DNA of 9,391 nt from an archaeon (GTDB lineage: Archaea; B1Sed10-29; JAJSAI01). Positions 3-9,391 of the stretch are shown piece after piece. The notes beneath the pieces were generated by a model that was given only the letters and a program-made list of their open reading frames with translations, was not told where the DNA came from and ran no database searches. The first letter of the stretch is position 1; every line of letters begins with the position of its first letter. Both the position numbers and the translations under genes were made by a program. The DNA lies in NCBI GenBank assembly GCA_024274695.1, contig JAJSAI010000011.1:1-9391 (forward strand), given 5' to 3'.

Positions 3-878
3 TCCGTTGACAAGCGGGCTTTCGCGAGCGCGCGGAGGATAGGCGGGGAGTCAGTGGTTGTTTTCTCGCAAGAGCTCGGCACCGCATCGCTCAGGAACGG
101 GGTCCGGACAGGGCCTGCTGAACTGCACGTGCTGCTTGACCTGGTGAAAGACCTTGCAGGAACAGGAGTGGAGGTCAGGATCTCGTCCCAGATCCCCCCG
201 GAGTCTGGCATGAGCTCGAGCACTGCAGTGCTTTCCGCGGTCCTGGACGCGTTGAACCGGGAGCTGGGCCTGGGGATAAGCAAGAAAGAGTACAGGAAGA
301 TCCTGCTCCCGTACCAGGAAAGGATTCACGGGGGCAGGGCCAGCGGTTCAGAGTTTTATTCCAGCGTGTTCGGGGGAATGCACTTGCTAGAGAAAAAGAA
401 CGGGAAGCTGGTGGCGCGCGGGATCAGCGGGCCTGAATTACCAGTGGTCATAGGCCACACCCGGGTCAGGGCCCCGACCCACCTGACCGTCAGGTACCAC
501 GTGCCCAGCCTGCTTGAAAGGTACCCTGAAAAGGTTGAGAGCGCCTGGAACGAGATAGGGGATATCACGAGGAGGATGGAGAAAGCGCTCAGGAACAATG
601 ACCTGCGCAGGGTGGGCGAGCTTGTGACAAGAAACCATGAGATCTTGAAAGACCTTGGCCTCAGCCACCCTAAACTGGATGACTGCGTGCAAGAAGCCCT
701 GGCTGCTGGAGCGCTCGGGGCAAAACTAAGCGGGGGAGGCTGGGGAGGGATAATGATAGCAGTGTGCACGCCTGAAGACCATGACAAGGTCGCCGAGGCG
801 ATCGCCAGGACGAAGGCGGATGTCATAAAAACCAGGATAGGAGTGCAGGGAGTTGGTGAAAATGTTCAAGGACATTAG
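3..878 (+). CDS. mvk: Mevalonate kinase (GHMP kinase family), 5'-truncated by window edge
   Basis: This enzyme phosphorylates mevalonate to mevalonate 5-phosphate with ATP in the cytosol. The frame is open from the first bases of the window, and the visible 291 residues lack the N-terminal GHMP motif 1, so the true start lies roughly 20-30 codons upstream. The GTG at 54 is in frame but would remove conserved sequence. Seen in the protein (residue 1 = codon 3-5): the ATP-binding GHMP motif PPESGMSSSTAV at about 65-76, a SG-S-E segment at 115-117 followed by FGG, a GHTRVRAPT stretch matching the mevalonate kinase GdTg..a.T region, and the C-terminal glycine loop GAKLSGGGWGG at about 239-249. 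Archaeal mevalonate kinases run about 300-320 residues. Its 3' end overlaps the UbiD-family gene by 17 nt, and all three downstream genes belong to the same pathway. The catalytic Asp of the SGxD motif appears to be Glu here. Another GHMP kinase acting on a mevalonate derivative is possible but less likely. Confidence 0.85.
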   Translation, partial: SVDKRAFASARRIGGESVVVFSQELGTASLRNGVRTGPAELHVLLDLVKDLAGTGVEVRISSQIPPESGMSSSTAVLSAVLDALNRELGLGISKKEYRKILLPYQERIHGGRASGSEFYSSVFGGMHLLEKKNGKLVARGISGPELPVVIGHTRVRAPTHLTVRYHVPSLLERYPEKVESAWNEIGDITRRMEKALRNNDLRRVGELVTRNHEILKDLGLSHPKLDDCVQEALAAGALGAKLSGGGWGGIMIAVCTPEDHDKVAEAIARTKADVIKTRIGVQGVGENVQGH

Positions 879-2184
879 GAGCCTTGCCAGGGCATGGGAC
901 CAAAGAGGAGAGCTCGTGAGGGTGAAAAAGCCCGTGTCAAAAAAGCTGGAGCTCGCGAGAGTGCAGAGAGCGCTTGAAGGAAAGCCTGTTCTGTTCGAGA
1001 ACATCAAGGAGAACCCTGGCTGGATGGTTGTAGGGAATGTTGTGAGCACGAGGGACCTGGTAGCGGAAGCGCTTGGTACTAGCAAGGAAGAGCTCATGTT
1101 CAGGCTCGCTGAAGCGATAGAAAACAGGAAAGCAAACGAGTGGGTTGACAGCCCGCCCTGCCAGGAGGTTGTTGAAAAACAGGTTGAACTTGACAGCCTG
1201 CCTATAGTGACGCACTACCCGACGGACGGAGGGCCGTACATTGCTTCGGGAGTAACAATAATAGAAGACCCTGAACTGGGCTACAACGCCTGCTTTCACA
1301 GGCTGATGCAGACCGGCAGGAACACGTTCACTGCCCGGATAATAGAACGCAGGGGCACGGACACGGCGTTGAAAAAGGTTGACGGAGACCTGCCTGCAGT
1401 GATCGCGGTCGGGGCTCCCGTGCAGTTGCTCGTTGGGGCAAGCATTTCTCCAGCGCCTGACGTGAACGAGCTTGAGATAGCCAACGCCCTGGCAGACCTT
1501 CCCCTTGCCAGGGCGGTCACGAACGGGCTTCCAGTGCCAGCTTACGCGGAAGTAATCCTGGAAGGCAGGATAACCAAGAAAAAGGACGCCGAAGGCCCGT
1601 TCGTGGACCTGACCGGGACCATAGACCCTGAAAGGCAGCAGCCAGTCATAGAAATTGACGCTGTAACCCACAGGAAGGATCCGTTGTGGCATTCCCTGCT
1701 TCCCGCGAGCAACGAGCACAAGATACTCATGGGAATGCCGAGAGAGCCCACCATATACAAGAAGGTCAAGGAAGCGGGAGTGGACGTGAAGAACGTGCTG
1801 ATAACCCCTGGAGGGTGCAGTTGGCTGCACGGGATCGTGCAGATAAACAGGCGGGAGCCTGACGATCCCAGGAAGGCGATAGAAGCCGCGTTCCAGGGGC
1901 ACAAGAGCATGAAACACGTTTTTATCGTGGACCCGGACGTTAACATCTACGATCCTAACGAGGTGGAATGGGCCATGGCCACCCGGTTCCAAGCTGGCAG
2001 GGACCTGTACCTGTACCCAGACCAGCCTGGCTCAAGCCTTGACCCCAGCGGAGAACATCCTCCGGGACAGAAGGCGAGGACCGACAAGGCCGGGTTCGAT
2101 CTGACAATCCCGTGGGGCAAGGACCCCGGAATGTTCAAGAGGCTGGATGCGGGGAAATTGAACCTGGAAGACTACCTAGGGTGA
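862..2184 (+). CDS. Anhydromevalonate phosphate decarboxylase (UbiD family)
   Basis: This prenyl-FMN-dependent UbiD-family decarboxylase is inferred to convert trans-anhydromevalonate 5-phosphate to isopentenyl phosphate and CO2. The 440-residue length fits the family. Visible hallmarks are YNACFHRLMQTGRNTF at 141-156 (the YRLQ-like segment carrying the cofactor-site arginine, R147), AYAEVILEG at 227-235, EGPFVDLTG at 244-252 (the EGPFxE motif of UbiD enzymes, with Asp249 at the last acidic position) and DPDVNIYDPNEVEWAMATR at 357-375. I chose ATG 862 over the in-frame TTG 853 because AGGGAG at 847-852 and GGTGA at 855-859 precede the ATG, whereas the TTG would sit on top of its own ribosome site. 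The gene overlaps the kinase gene by 17 nt and ends 6 nt before the dehydratase large subunit. The neighbours decide the assignment: from sequence alone another UbiD-type aromatic decarboxylase could not be excluded. A UbiX flavin prenyltransferase must be encoded elsewhere. Confidence 0.88.
   Translation: MFKDIRSLARAWDQRGELVRVKKPVSKKLELARVQRALEGKPVLFENIKENPGWMVVGNVVSTRDLVAEALGTSKEELMFRLAEAIENRKANEWVDSPPCQEVVEKQVELDSLPIVTHYPTDGGPYIASGVTIIEDPELGYNACFHRLMQTGRNTFTARIIERRGTDTALKKVDGDLPAVIAVGAPVQLLVGASISPAPDVNELEIANALADLPLARAVTNGLPVPAYAEVILEGRITKKKDAEGPFVDLTGTIDPERQQPVIEIDAVTHRKDPLWHSLLPASNEHKILMGMPREPTIYKKVKEAGVDVKNVLITPGGCSWLHGIVQINRREPDDPRKAIEAAFQGHKSMKHVFIVDPDVNIYDPNEVEWAMATRFQAGRDLYLYPDQPGSSLDPSGEHPPGQKARTDKAGFDLTIPWGKDPGMFKRLDAGKLNLEDYLG
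2179..2184 (+). promoter_or_regulatory. Ribosome binding site of dehydratase large subunit
   Basis: GGGTGA lies 6 nt before ATG 2191 and contains the TGA stop of the upstream decarboxylase gene, so termination and re-initiation are likely coupled. It supports the first of the two adjacent ATG codons as the start. Confidence 0.6.
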
Positions 2185-2190
2185 GAACGC

Positions 2191-3390
2191 ATGATGCTCA
2201 CAAGAGAAGAGCAGGCGATGCTGGACGGGGAGCACGGGCCAGGAGTACAGAAGGCCATGGAAATAATCGTGGCCCTCGCAAGAATCTACCGGGCCGAGAG
2301 GCTGGTTCCAGTGGCCAGCGTGCAGGTCGCGGGAGTCAGTTACAAGAACCTGGGGGACGCGGGAATACAGTTCCTTGAGGAATGGGCTGAACAAGGCGCG
2401 CGGGTGAAGGTACCGACCACCCTTAACCCTGCTGGCATGGACCTGGACGACTGGAAGGAAATAGGGTTCTCTGAAGAGTTCGCGGGAAAACAGTTGAAGG
2501 TCATCCGAGCATTCCAGAGGATGGGAATAATGCCAACGTGCACGTGCACCCCATACCTCGCTGGGAACGTTCCCAAGTACGGGGACCACATAGCGTGGGC
2601 TGAGAGCTCGGCGGTCTCGTACGCGAACTCTGTCATCGGGGCCAGGACCAACAGGGAAGGGGGTCCGAGCGCGATCGCCAGCGCGGTCACCGGCCGGACC
2701 GCCGCGTTCGGGTATCATCTTGACGAGAACAGGATCTCGGAGCACGAGGTAAGGGTCACTGCCGCACTGGATGACTATTCTGATTACGGGGCCCTAGGGT
2801 ACTGGACAGGAAAGAGGTTGAAGAACATGGTCCCTTACTTCACGGGAATAAGAACCGCGACCGCTGACCAGCTCAAGCAGCTTGGAGCGAGCGCTGCCGC
2901 TAGCGGGGCGATCGCACTGTACCACGTTCACGGGATAACTCCCGAGGCGAGGGCCAAAAGCATGCTGGCAGAGGACCACGAGACCCTGGAGTTCGGGGAA
3001 GAAGAGAAGAAGAGCGTGAGAGGAGAACTCTCAGGAGAAGTTGACCTTGTCGTGTTCGGGTGCCCTCACGCCAGCCTGGAAGAACTCAAAAAGATTGCGA
3101 GCATGGTAAGCGGGAGGAAACTGAAGGCAGAACTGTGGGTGACGACCAGCAAGCCAGTTAAAGCGCTCGCCGAAAGAGCTGGCCTGAAAAAAACGATAGA
3201 AGAGGCTGGGGGCAGGATAGTTGCTGACGCATGCGCTGTCGTGGCGCCCGTGAAGTCGCTTGGGTTCAAGAGCATCGCGGTCAACTCGGGAAAGTACTTG
3301 TGGTACCTGACCAGCCAGGGGTACAAGGTGTTCTTCGGGGACACCGAAAAGTGCGTTCAGGCCGCGGTGACGGGAAGGTGGGAAGAATGA
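2191..3390 (+). CDS. Phosphomevalonate dehydratase large subunit (aconitase X)
   Basis: This is the catalytic large subunit of the aconitase-X-type mevalonate 5-phosphate dehydratase, which makes trans-anhydromevalonate 5-phosphate in the archaeal mevalonate pathway. It has 399 residues, typical for a stand-alone AcnX large subunit. Visible features are the N-terminal LTREEQAMLDGEHG signature at 3-16, a TCTCTPYL segment with Cys117 and Cys119, the EGGPSAIASAVTGRTA segment at 156-171, GCPHAS with Cys291, and DACAVV with Cys348. In this family these cysteines are the candidates for holding an iron-sulfur cluster. The order large then small subunit, with an ATGA overlap to the small-subunit gene, matches a two-subunit enzyme made in equal amounts. 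Some bacterial AcnX proteins are hydroxyproline dehydratases, but the mevalonate kinase and UbiD neighbours make that role very unlikely. Confidence 0.92.
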   Translation: MMLTREEQAMLDGEHGPGVQKAMEIIVALARIYRAERLVPVASVQVAGVSYKNLGDAGIQFLEEWAEQGARVKVPTTLNPAGMDLDDWKEIGFSEEFAGKQLKVIRAFQRMGIMPTCTCTPYLAGNVPKYGDHIAWAESSAVSYANSVIGARTNREGGPSAIASAVTGRTAAFGYHLDENRISEHEVRVTAALDDYSDYGALGYWTGKRLKNMVPYFTGIRTATADQLKQLGASAAASGAIALYHVHGITPEARAKSMLAEDHETLEFGEEEKKSVRGELSGEVDLVVFGCPHASLEELKKIASMVSGRKLKAELWVTTSKPVKALAERAGLKKTIEEAGGRIVADACAVVAPVKSLGFKSIAVNSGKYLWYLTSQGYKVFFGDTEKCVQAAVTGRWEE

Positions 3391-3776
3391 TTGCACTGGA
3401 AGGAAGAGTCATAAAGGAAGGAAGGGCTGAAGGAGCCGCCCTCGTGTCAAGCGAGCCAATAGGCTTCTACGGGAACGTTGACCCTGACACCGGGATCGTG
3501 ACGGAAAAAGGACACCCCCTGGAGGGCAAGAGCATTGCCGGAAGAATTCTTGTCTTCCCAACAGGAAAGGGCAGCACCGTGGGAAGCTATACCATGTACA
3601 GGCTGAAGAAGAAGGGGAAGGCCCCTGCAGGGATAATAGTCAGAGAAAGCGAGCCCATAATAGCCGTCGGGGCAATAATATCAGGGATCCCGATGGTGGA
3701 CCAGGTTGACATAAGCAAGGTTCCTGACGGTGCGAGGGTAATGATAGAGGGAGGCAGGGTCATCGTGGAAGACTGA
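3387..3776 (+). CDS. Phosphomevalonate dehydratase small subunit (DUF126, aconitase X swivel domain)
   Basis: This 129-residue subunit forms the swivelling lid domain over the AcnX active site and pairs with the large subunit encoded just upstream. The diagnostic loop FPTGKGSTVGSYTMY is at 57-71, with the GKGST core that reaches into the active site in this family. GNVDPDTGIV at 29-38 and GIPMVDQVD at 100-108 are also typical. The start is ATG 3387, which overlaps the TGA of the large subunit (ATGA) and is preceded by GGTGGGAAG. The same frame stays open upstream inside the large-subunit gene, but that part does not resemble the family. The last 17 nt overlap the end of the minus-strand metallophosphoesterase gene. 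No convincing terminator is visible after the stop; only a short CTTTTCC follows. Confidence 0.9.
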   Translation: MIALEGRVIKEGRAEGAALVSSEPIGFYGNVDPDTGIVTEKGHPLEGKSIAGRILVFPTGKGSTVGSYTMYRLKKKGKAPAGIIVRESEPIIAVGAIISGIPMVDQVDISKVPDGARVMIEGGRVIVED

Positions 3777-6384: not shown

Positions 6385-6900
6385 TCACGATAACTTCAGG
6401 TAACCCGCGCGCTTGAACCTGAACAATCTCGCCACAAGACATGATGGGAACCTCTGAACCAAGTCGTTCATCAGCTTCGCCTGATCATTGTACAGCAACC
6501 TCATTCTCGCAATCTCCATCTCCAACCGGGCTAGGACCTCCTGCAGTTCCCTGAACTCTTCCGAGGCCATGAGCTGAGGGTATCTTTCGGCAATCCCGAA
6601 AAACCGCTTCTCAGAATCGGAAAGTCTTTCCTGCACTTCTGAAACCGTCGGGATCTGCTTTTGCGAGGAGGGCTCTTGTCTCGGCGATTCCTGCTAGCAG
6701 TGTTCTCTCGTAAGAAGCGTAAGCGGACACGAGCAAGGCAAGCTTTTCCACCAGTCGGCTCTTTTTTTCATGAGCACGCCGACCTGCGAAAGGGTTGTCT
6801 CCAGCATGTTCCTCATTCCAACCAGCCTGTTGTACTCCGCAAGAGCGTAGGCGAGTGCTGCGAGCAAAACCAATGCGGCTCCGGCAAGGATAGTGTTCAT
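6385..6900 (-). pseudogene. lemA: LemA-like membrane protein, two compensating frameshifts
   Basis: LemA proteins are small envelope proteins with one N-terminal membrane helix and a helical-bundle domain. Here the N-terminal part (ATG 6900) has the helix ILAGAALVLLAALAYALA and YNRLVGMRNMLETTLSQVGV, then MKKRAD. In that frame the next residues are nonsense and a TAG lies at 6694-6696. The missing core is in a neighbouring frame (about 6753-6663) and reads LVEKLALLVSAYASYERTLL and then AGIAETRALLA, after which the original frame resumes as KQIPTVSEVQERL, FFGIAERYPQLMA, MRLLYND and RFPSCLVARLFRFK, all LemA-like. A missing base near 6754/6753 (or in the A7 run 6762-6768) and an extra base in the A4 run 6659-6662 restore about 172 residues, near the family length. 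GTG 6909 is an alternative start; ATG 6900 is preferred because GTGAT lies 4 nt upstream. It is either a recent pseudogene or a place of base-call errors. It is third in its operon. Confidence 0.75.
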
Positions 6901-6905
6901 CTGAA

Positions 6906-7097
6906 TCACGGCTGCCCCATTACCTCCATCATCTTCTGGACTATTCTCATGTGCTCTTCTTCCTCTGATTTTATGACCTCCAGGACCGCCCGGATCCTCG
7001 GGTCAGAGAACTTTTCCAGGTACCCTGCGTACAGGTCTCTCGCGTTCTTCTCGTTATCGTACAACATTTTCATGGCGTTAAGGAACTCAGTACTCAT
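6906..7097 (-). CDS. Small half-ferritin/rubrerythrin-like helical protein
   Basis: This 63-residue protein is predicted to form a helical hairpin. The first helix carries YDNEKNARDLYAGYLEKF with Glu16, and the second carries VIKSEEEEHMRIVQKMMEVM with an ExxH pair (Glu46, His49). That is the ligand pattern of one half of a ferritin-like four-helix bundle (known for the rubrerythrin/ferritin superfamily), so a dimer could hold a di-iron site. The metal site is inferred, not shown. The start is ATG 7097 with GGAGGGTGA 5 nt upstream. The in-frame GTG 7106 lies inside that ribosome site and is rejected. The gene overlaps the end of the preceding small helical gene by 11 nt and ends 5 nt before the lemA start, so the three are one operon. 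The name of the exact family is not recognised. Confidence 0.7.
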   Translation of the reverse strand: MSTEFLNAMKMLYDNEKNARDLYAGYLEKFSDPRIRAVLEVIKSEEEEHMRIVQKMMEVMGQP

Positions 7098-7326
7098 CCT
7101 TCTCACCCTCCCTCACGTAGTCCAGCAGCTCGTTAAACTCCTGCTCGTGCTCTCTTGATTCAGAAACCAGTTTCTTGAAGTACTCCCGCATCAGCGCGTC
7201 CTGCTCGGGAGAGAGCCTCATCCTGCTTATCAGCTGCCCGAACACCGCCTCAAGGTCCTGGATCAGCTTCTCCTCGTAACCCGCGGCGCGCTCGAGCATT
7301 TCAAGAGCCTCTTCCCTGGAGATCAT
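7087..7326 (-). CDS. Small helical protein, possibly ferritin-like, operon leader
   Basis: This 79-residue protein has two predicted long helices: EEALEMLERAAGYEEKLIQD at 5-24, continuing to about 36, and LSPEQDALMREYFKKLVSES at 38-57, continuing REHEQEFNELLDYV. Glu18/Glu19 in the first helix and Glu56/His60 in the second recall the half-bundle pattern of its downstream neighbour, but the strict ExxH spacing is absent because position -3 from His60 is Ser57. It may therefore bind metal poorly or act as the partner of the next protein. The frame is open up to ATG 7368, but ATG 7326 (MISREEAL) is chosen: it lies 26 nt from the centre of the TATA-like element at 7348-7356, as expected for a leaderless mRNA, and the longer version would span the shared promoter. 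No membrane segment or cysteine is present. Confidence 0.6.
   Translation of the reverse strand: MISREEALEMLERAAGYEEKLIQDLEAVFGQLISRMRLSPEQDALMREYFKKLVSESREHEQEFNELLDYVREGEKDEY
7103..7111 (-). promoter_or_regulatory. Strong ribosome binding site fixing the start at 7097
   Basis: On the minus strand this reads GGAGGGTGA, 5 nt before ATG 7097, and lies inside the end of the upstream gene. It decides against the GTG at 7106, which it contains. Confidence 0.65.
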
Positions 7327-7377: not shown

Positions 7378-7770
7378 ATGGCATCTGACAATGAACTCAT
7401 CAGACTAGCGAGATCGGCAGCGAGAAAACGCAGGACATCAGAAGAGATGACGGTCGGAGAAGTCGGCGCCGCCCTGGAAACAGAAGAGGGAAACGTTTAC
7501 ACCGGGATCAGCGTGAACGCGGCGTGCGGCATAGGATTCTGCGCAGAACACGCGGCCATAGCAAAAATGCTGGAGCACGGTGAAACCAGGATAAAGAAGA
7601 TGGTCGCGGTGTCAGAAGACGGGAGAATACTCCCGCCCTGCGGCAGGTGCAGAGAACTAGTGTACCAGGCAGACCACGAGAACCTTAACACCAGAATAAT
7701 CACGTCTGAAAAAGAAGTCAGGACGCTGAAGGAACTGCTGCCCCTCCGGTGGCAGGAGGCGTTCGAATGA
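7378..7770 (+). CDS. cdd: Cytidine deaminase family enzyme
   Basis: This enzyme is a zinc-dependent nucleoside (or related) deaminase, probably turning cytidine/deoxycytidine into uridine/deoxyuridine for pyrimidine salvage. At 130 residues it matches the homotetrameric class. Zinc motifs are clear: CAEHAAI with Cys55 and catalytic Glu57, and PPCGRC with Cys88 and Cys91. DGRILPPCGRCREL at 81-94 is typical. The ribose-contacting NxE of standard cytidine deaminases (as in NVENAS) reads SVNAAC at 45-50, so the substrate may differ; a blasticidin-deaminase-like or other pyrimidine deaminase is the main alternative. The start ATG 7378 is 26 nt from a TATA-like element, suggesting a leaderless transcript. 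Its stop overlaps the next start (ATGA). pyrG lies nearby, but in a different transcription unit. Confidence 0.85.
   Translation: MASDNELIRLARSAARKRRTSEEMTVGEVGAALETEEGNVYTGISVNAACGIGFCAEHAAIAKMLEHGETRIKKMVAVSEDGRILPPCGRCRELVYQADHENLNTRIITSEKEVRTLKELLPLRWQEAFE
7754..7759 (+). promoter_or_regulatory. Ribosome binding site fixing the start at 7767
   Basis: AGGAGG lies 7 nt before ATG 7767, inside the end of the deaminase gene. This identifies 7767 rather than the earlier in-frame GTG at 7749 as the start of the downstream gene. Confidence 0.7.
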
Positions 7771-8402
7771 AGAAGGCGAGACTCAGAATATACAAGAAGG
7801 GAATAGAAGCCAGCGTCGTGTACGCTGACAAGGAAAAAAAGACCGTGACCAAGGTCTACGAGATAGGCAGGCACAGGAACCCGCTCGCGTTCGAGCCCAT
7901 AACAAGCTACGAGATGGAGCGCAGGTTCGAGGAAATGAAGGAACTCAGGGAAAAACTAAAGCACGAGAAAGACTTTGAGATCGTGGAAGTCCTGGAAATG
8001 AAGAAAGGAAAGACCATTAAAGGAAAAGACGCTGTGGTCTGGAAAGAAAAACAAGCCGAAGGCTACTCGGTGACCCAGATAAGAAAACAGTGGGACAAGG
8101 TCAAAGAACTTGCTGAAGAAGGCAATCCTGAGACAATGAAAGAATACGAGAAACTCAGAAAAATGGTGGGAGAAGACCTGCTCCCAGCATACCTTGACCT
8201 GAAAAAAGGAGAAGAACTCGTGGACAAGTTCTACAACAAGGTCAACGAGATCCGGGAGAAAATAAAAAAAGCGTACAGCAAGTACCCCGCGGCCGCCGAA
8301 CAGAAAATAGAAAACGCTGCAAGCAACTACATCTGGGACCCGAAAAGGAAAAAGTTCGTGGTCGTGGACGTAATAAGACCAGACGAGTACACCGGGTTCT
8401 GA
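7767..8402 (+). CDS. Unrecognised charged helical protein
   Basis: I do not recognise this 211-residue protein. It is very rich in Lys and Glu, has no cysteine, no signal peptide and no membrane segment, so it should be cytosolic. The N-terminus (about 3-33) looks like beta strands (RLRIYKKGIEASVVYADKEK). Residues 47-75 and about 100-172 look like long helices or coiled coils with heptad-like spacing (YEMERRFEEMKELREKLK; QIRKQWDKVKELAEEG; NKVNEIREKIKKAYSKY). The C-terminus ends in a short conserved-looking segment NYIWDPKRKKFVVVDVIRP at 187-205. ATG 7767 overlaps the deaminase TGA and has AGGAGG 7 nt upstream, so it is co-translated with the deaminase. The context does not reveal its role. 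Confidence 0.8.
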   Translation: MKKARLRIYKKGIEASVVYADKEKKTVTKVYEIGRHRNPLAFEPITSYEMERRFEEMKELREKLKHEKDFEIVEVLEMKKGKTIKGKDAVVWKEKQAEGYSVTQIRKQWDKVKELAEEGNPETMKEYEKLRKMVGEDLLPAYLDLKKGEELVDKFYNKVNEIREKIKKAYSKYPAAAEQKIENAASNYIWDPKRKKFVVVDVIRPDEYTGF

Positions 8403-8868: not shown

Positions 8869-8958
8869 CAGGCCGGGAGCGTGATCGTAAGCAAACTGCT
8901 GGGGCGAGTGAATGCCGAGCGCGAGGGAAGTCATGCGAACACTGTCGTTTTGCATTCA
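8869..8958. other. Short non-coding stretch flanking the CRISPR array
   Basis: These 90 bp between the membrane protein gene and the first CRISPR repeat are GC-rich and contain no supported gene, promoter or RNA. They do not look like the AT-rich leader expected at the acquisition end of an array, which suggests that this is the far (trailer) end. Confidence 0.5.
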
Positions 8959-9057
8959 TTTTAAATCCTAACAAGGCACTATTGAAACATGAGGCCCATG
9001 ATGAGGAGTAGTTGTACTCGTGCATGAATTTCAATCCTAACAAGGCACTATTGAAAC

Positions 9058-9094
9058 ATCAAGAAATAACTCTGACAATAACATGCGAAAAGTG
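9058..9094 (+). repeat. CRISPR spacer 2, first copy of a duplicated spacer
   Basis: This 37-bp spacer begins ATCAAGAAATAA and ends GCGAAAAGTG. It is identical over its whole length to the spacer at 9324-9360. Confidence 0.95.
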
Positions 9095-9323
9095 ATTTCA
9101 ATCCTAACAAGGCACTATTGAAACGGCAAAACCCTCAACACGCGCAGCACCCTCGTCTTCAATTTCAATCCTAACAAGGCACTATTGAAACTTACAGAAG
9201 GAGAGCATACGATTAACCTAACAGCACATTTCAATCCTAACAAGGCACTATTGAAACGGATGGGTACGCTCGGTTATTTGCTTTGTATTACCAATTTCAA
9301 TCCTAACAAGGCACTATTGAAAC

Positions 9324-9360
9324 ATCAAGAAATAACTCTGACAATAACATGCGAAAAGTG
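9324..9360 (+). repeat. CRISPR spacer 6, second copy of the duplicated spacer
   Basis: All 37 bases equal spacer 2 (9058-9094), four units away. The base after the following repeat (A at 9391) differs from the first base of spacer 3 (G), so the copy does not simply continue as a repeated block. Confidence 0.95.
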
Positions 9361-9391
9361 ATTTCAATCCTAACAAGGCACTATTGAAACA

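Follow-up and report, generated by a model that had tools for sequence, protein, structure and literature searches.

Two small overlapping archaeal genes, here named A and B, form a conserved unit, which is well supported, and their products are likely to be the two halves of one ferritin-like bundle. On balance, we favour a reading in which A and B together would build a heteromeric four-helix metal site of the ferritin/rubrerythrin type from two unequal halves. The pair lies in a window of 9,391 nucleotides (the whole stretch of archaeal DNA analysed here), among the following features:

6330-4636, minus strand: pyrG (CTP synthase)
6385..6909, minus strand: LemA-like gene, frameshifted twice (near 6755 and near 6670), judged to lie outside the system
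6906..7097, minus strand: gene B, 63 aa, ATG at 7097 and stop at 6906; half-ferritin with E16-x6-Y23 and E46xxH49
7087..7097, minus strand: A/B overlap of 11 nt, ATGAGTACTGA, where B starts (ATG) within the last codons of A, in the +1 frame
7087..7326, minus strand: gene A, 79 aa, ATG at 7326 and stop at 7087; helical hairpin, divergent half-ferritin-like, with E18, E19, E56-S57-x-x-H60 and the C-terminal tail DEY
7378: position from which a cytidine deaminase gene diverges

An initial annotation of this DNA had described two adjacent genes for helical hairpins of 79 and 63 residues, in agreement with the open reading frames and the predicted folds, and had taken the presence of the gene pair in relatives as a requirement of its reading. 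A profile of A, built from the first three A sequences and then from larger sets, finds the gene in 14 archaeal genomes, and an overlapping B accompanies all 14 confident matches. The pair spans three phyla: that of the window, where 3 of 19 genomes carry it, the Hydrothermarchaeota, whose carriers include Ca. Pyrohabitans, and the phylum of a genome that we label G394. Since its members recur in the 14 genomes at ~20-30% identity, in the same ordered arrangement and with the same overlap geometry, the pair is not a chance juxtaposition. A search at E <= 1e-4 through 115 genomes from the phylum to which another genome, G023, belongs gave no split pair, and neither the viral contigs nor PHROGs gave a match. 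A match in G236 is a coiled-coil protein and was treated as a false positive. In G074, locus L058, between a flavodiiron-type fragment and a rubrerythrin, resembles a second, partial pair; its first helix was not found and it was left uncounted.

The overlap is 11 nt long in 11 of the 14 pairs and 17 nt in G016, and it reaches up to 62 nt in G041 and G063, where the start of B is uncertain. The 11-nt overlap seen in the window agrees with the earlier view of the genes as overlapping and coupled; it suggests that A and B are produced in equal amounts, presumably by translational coupling. We also considered that +1 frameshifting at the conserved stop-proximal overlap might sometimes fuse A and B into one chain, as in the joined relatives described below. 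Relative to the end of A, B does lie in the +1 frame, in a geometry conserved across phyla, and the codon before the stop of A is TNN (aromatic) in 12 of 14 cases. However, B has an ATG of its own within the overlap, so that ordinary coupled re-initiation would suffice, and the pairs of G041 and G063 lack the 11-nt geometry. We hold frameshifting to be very improbable.

Protein B has the features of a ferritin-like half-domain. The Glu plus ExxH pattern noticed earlier corresponds to E16 and E46xxH49, to which Y23 can be added, and E16, A19, Y23, E46 and H49 are invariant in all 13 aligned pairs. The spacing of these residues (E, Y at +7, E at +30 and H at +33) is identical to that of the EncFtn ferroxidase ligands E32, Y39, E62 and H65 (PMC5012862), and B also corresponds to one of the two E-x6-Y/ExxH halves that make up the archaeoferritin motif (PMC3401498). 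The AlphaFold2 model of B, made with five relatives, is a two-helix hairpin (helices 3-29 and 33-59, mean pLDDT 93.7), which would place the Glu and the ExxH, at canonical spacing, on adjacent antiparallel helices. In a fold search its best PDB matches were EncC, EncB, NE0167, Rru_A0973 and a designed di-iron bundle, with E-values of 0.03 or worse, a probability of about 1.0 and TM scores of 0.75-0.87, and the B profile matches ferritin-like PDB chains by sequence as well. Against family models the window's B stays below the cut-offs, with 19.3 bits for Rubrerythrin PF02915 (cut-off 22.8), 15.8 for PF22277 (27), 26.7 for EncB_fam (90) and 25.3 for TIGR04535 (125), the last three being models of encapsulated ferritins; 9 of 11 B members match PF02915 below E 0.01.

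Protein A is more divergent. Its motif, called imperfect in the initial annotation, is E followed by [ED]-[ST]-x-x-H and not ExxH, and the variant is itself conserved across relatives: E18 and H60 are invariant in 13 of 13 aligned pairs, and A keeps an acid at positions 19 and 56 and Ser/Thr at 57. Compared with the archaeoferritin half-motif it is one step off, with the acid at -4 and Ser/Thr at -3 from the His, so that A does not carry the Glu plus ExxH on adjacent antiparallel helices that marks a ferritin-like half-domain. In G394 the motif reads E-N-x-x-H and the Glu of helix 1 is one alignment place off. The AlphaFold2 model of A (five relatives) is again a hairpin, with helices 4-35 and 40-72, a pLDDT of 88.7 and values below 50 for the last three residues. 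Its PDB matches were generic hairpins with E-values of 0.3 or worse, none of them a ferritin, and in the libraries searched A matched no curated family and had no family model.

The candidate ligands of both proteins fall on the predicted buried faces of the hairpins. For all six (E18, E56 and H60 of A; E16, E46 and H49 of B) the angle to the local hydrophobic face, a direction calculated without the ligand positions, is no more than 52 degrees. Of the 41 other charged residues, 4 come to within 60 degrees, and the clustering of acidic and His ligands anticipated in the initial annotation is thus found in both proteins. This bears on a reading of A and B as metal-free small helical adaptors, in which Glu and His would be conserved for salt bridges or for contacts with another protein. 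In its favour, short hairpins match many unrelated structures and the metal role of the pair is putative. Against it, the conserved Glu and His sit on the hydrophobic faces, unlike other charged residues, and B possesses the full di-iron half-motif with its Tyr. We consider adaptors of this kind improbable.

Further evidence on how the two proteins may fit together comes from joined, single-chain relatives, which were reached via weak matches of A. Their first half carries E plus [ED]SxxH, as in A, and their second half E plus ExxH, as in B, and because both types occur in this order in single chains, the pair has the look of an asymmetric ferritin-like domain divided between two genes. The joined proteins include Rubrerythrin (PF02915) proteins of the G023 family, several of which exceed the Pfam cut-off across the two halves; a DUF835 domain is present at the C-terminus of two. 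In profile comparisons A is closer to the N-halves (5.5e-6) than to the C-halves (6.6e-3), a comparison that is partly circular since it was the A profile that led to the N-halves; B is closer to the C-halves (6.4e-7) than to the N-halves (6.1e-5). With the columns of the A profile shuffled, no value below 0.007 was obtained; one coiled-coil control reached 1e-4. The joined proteins of G207 and G031 contain both motif types in this order and adjoin a flavodiiron-type gene; A fits their second half better than the first. That of G207 (PF02915, 19.0 bits, below 22.8) comes after the flavodiiron-type gene, whose identity was read from its sequence. In G394, A is separate and B is extended at its C-terminus by a further domain that weakly matches DUF835 (E 0.017).

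We infer the pairing of A with B, and likewise the identity of the metal and the activity, from the motifs, the predicted folds and these relatives. Each of the two presumably coupled genes would give one two-helix hairpin, and the hairpins would associate, probably in antiparallel fashion, as A-B dimers or higher oligomers. The buried ligands E16, E46 and H49 of B, with Y23, would then meet E18, E56 and H60 of A in a di-iron or mixed-metal site. Its predicted asymmetry follows from the [ED]SxxH that A has in place of the ExxH of B. Candidate chemistries are the oxidation of iron and the reduction of peroxide or O2, and a di-metal oxidase or peroxidase is plausible. The earlier proposal of an A-B hetero-oligomer sharing one metal site is in this form likely. 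More tentatively, with somewhat less than even confidence, A and B may constitute a ferritin-like enzyme that is an obligate hetero-oligomer, its one asymmetric, possibly mixed-metal site being built by unequal half-bundles from two genes. It may be a surviving form of the step from single half-ferritins to duplicated and fused ferritins, or may have arisen through the later splitting of a fused gene.

Alternatively, B alone could form a homodimeric di-iron half-ferritin, similar to EncFtn or to the designed DF proteins, with A as a separate partner (for example a metal donor, a redox or an assembly subunit) that touches B but stays outside its active site. The complete EncFtn half-site of B, with its spacing and its fold matches of the EncB/EncC type, fits B homodimers too, and the model of A matches no ferritin. 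Solo half-ferritins moreover exist in this lineage, as the window's own genome (G000) encodes a stand-alone EncFtn-like half-ferritin (L064, contig C23, about 28953-29150) that scores above the cut-offs of both PF22277 and PF02915, with no encapsulin found in that genome. On the other hand, B overlaps A in every pair, A keeps a buried E/E/H set of its own, and the joined proteins combine A-type with B-type halves. Encapsulin (PF04454) was not found in 11 pair-bearing genomes, in a search that detected its positive controls, which argues against B homodimers and led us to reject a role of the pair as encapsulin cargo. Taken together, we regard the homodimer as unlikely.

Among known systems, the heteromeric A-B site that we favour comes closest to the joined archaeal Rubrerythrin-family (PF02915) proteins (L075, L078, L080, L082 and L083, some with a C-terminal DUF835 domain), which share the two hairpins and the same motif halves, with A resembling the N-half profiles and B the C-half profiles; they are one chain with a linker, whereas A and B are encoded by two overlapping genes. 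EncFtn, EncB and EncC of R. rubrum and M. xanthus are two-helix half-ferritins; B has identical E/Y/E/H spacing and a similar hairpin. However, EncFtn comes from one gene and forms homo-oligomers with a symmetric site; it has a targeting tail and an encapsulin shell. A and B are an asymmetric two-gene pair for which no encapsulin was found, and the chain of B stops just past helix 2. In archaeoferritin (AFR, P. furiosus PF1196; relative PF1190, PDB 2FZF) one chain bears the canonical motif twice, once per half, whereas A lacks the Tyr and the ExxH. Classical rubrerythrin resembles the pair in its ferritin-like site and differs in being a single chain with ExxH in both halves and a rubredoxin domain, which A and B do not have. 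The two-helix forms, EncFtn and the designed DF proteins, build symmetric sites from identical chains. In the open-licence papers searched, no split or heterodimeric ferritin-like pair was found described.

The membrane protein LemA had also been placed in the operon as a partner of the pair, and here the initial annotation does not hold. In the window the LemA-like frame begins at the stop of B, but the stretch matches PF04011 only across two frame changes, with an internal TGA and TAG (76.8 bits), and 6385-6909 holds no intact open reading frame of this family. The two frameshifts lie within about 100 bases of each other and the neighbouring genes are intact; the window is compatible with real frame changes and with an assembly error alike. 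An intact LemA (215 bits) is encoded on contig C21 of the window's genome, and in G000, G004 and G016 the intact LemA genes stand on contigs other than that of the pair. Of the proposed co-occurrence of three genes, A and B are indeed conserved together, while LemA is not beside the pair in the other loci read. With its two frameshifts LemA was rejected as a functional partner, and a three-gene system formed by the pair and LemA has in our view almost no chance of being correct.

The other neighbours of the pair vary. In G004 a rubrerythrin gene lies directly upstream, and in G016 a rubredoxin/rubrerythrin-like gene does so, followed by divergent rubrerythrin and desulfoferrodoxin genes; these neighbours suggest that the pair may have a role in defence against oxygen and peroxide. 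They occur in a minority of contexts: in the window the surroundings are the cytidine deaminase gene, the broken LemA and CTP synthase, in family f11 of the Hydrothermarchaeota the neighbour is an MgtC/DUF4010 protein, and the other loci have a ParA-type ATPase with a histidine kinase, or unrelated genes.

If the favoured reading is correct, archaeal lineages about which little is known would gain a small candidate protein of oxygen defence or iron handling. As the libraries searched hold no family model for A, it would be an unannotated addition. Unequal halves in two genes, together with joined versions, offer a test set by nature of how asymmetry arises in a di-metal site, and of whether the split or the fused form came first.

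Elsewhere in the window, a plus-strand cluster at 54-3776 encodes a GHMP (mevalonate-type) kinase, a UbiD-family decarboxylase and the large and swivel subunits of aconitase X, which we take to resemble the archaeal modified mevalonate pathway. A 211-aa protein (7767-8402, plus strand), whose gene overlaps the end of the cytidine deaminase gene, matched nothing in NCBIfam and reached Pfam below threshold only. A CRISPR-like array occupies 8955-9390 (plus strand), with 7 copies of a repeat of about 30 nt, ATTTCAATCCTAACAAGGCACTATTGAAAC, at a spacing of 66-69 nt, and no cas genes were recognised among the scanned genes of the window. One repeat-spacer-repeat unit of the array (9027-9124) recurs exactly at 9293-9390, by the end of the window, possibly as an assembly loop. 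Finally, the C-terminus of A is aromatic in 12 of 14 genomes and nearly always preceded by an acid (DEY, DEF, DDF, DDW, SEY, NEF); it reads NVF in G069, and the aromatic end is kept in G016 despite the different overlap register there. Several archaeal rubrerythrins also end in EEY or EVY.
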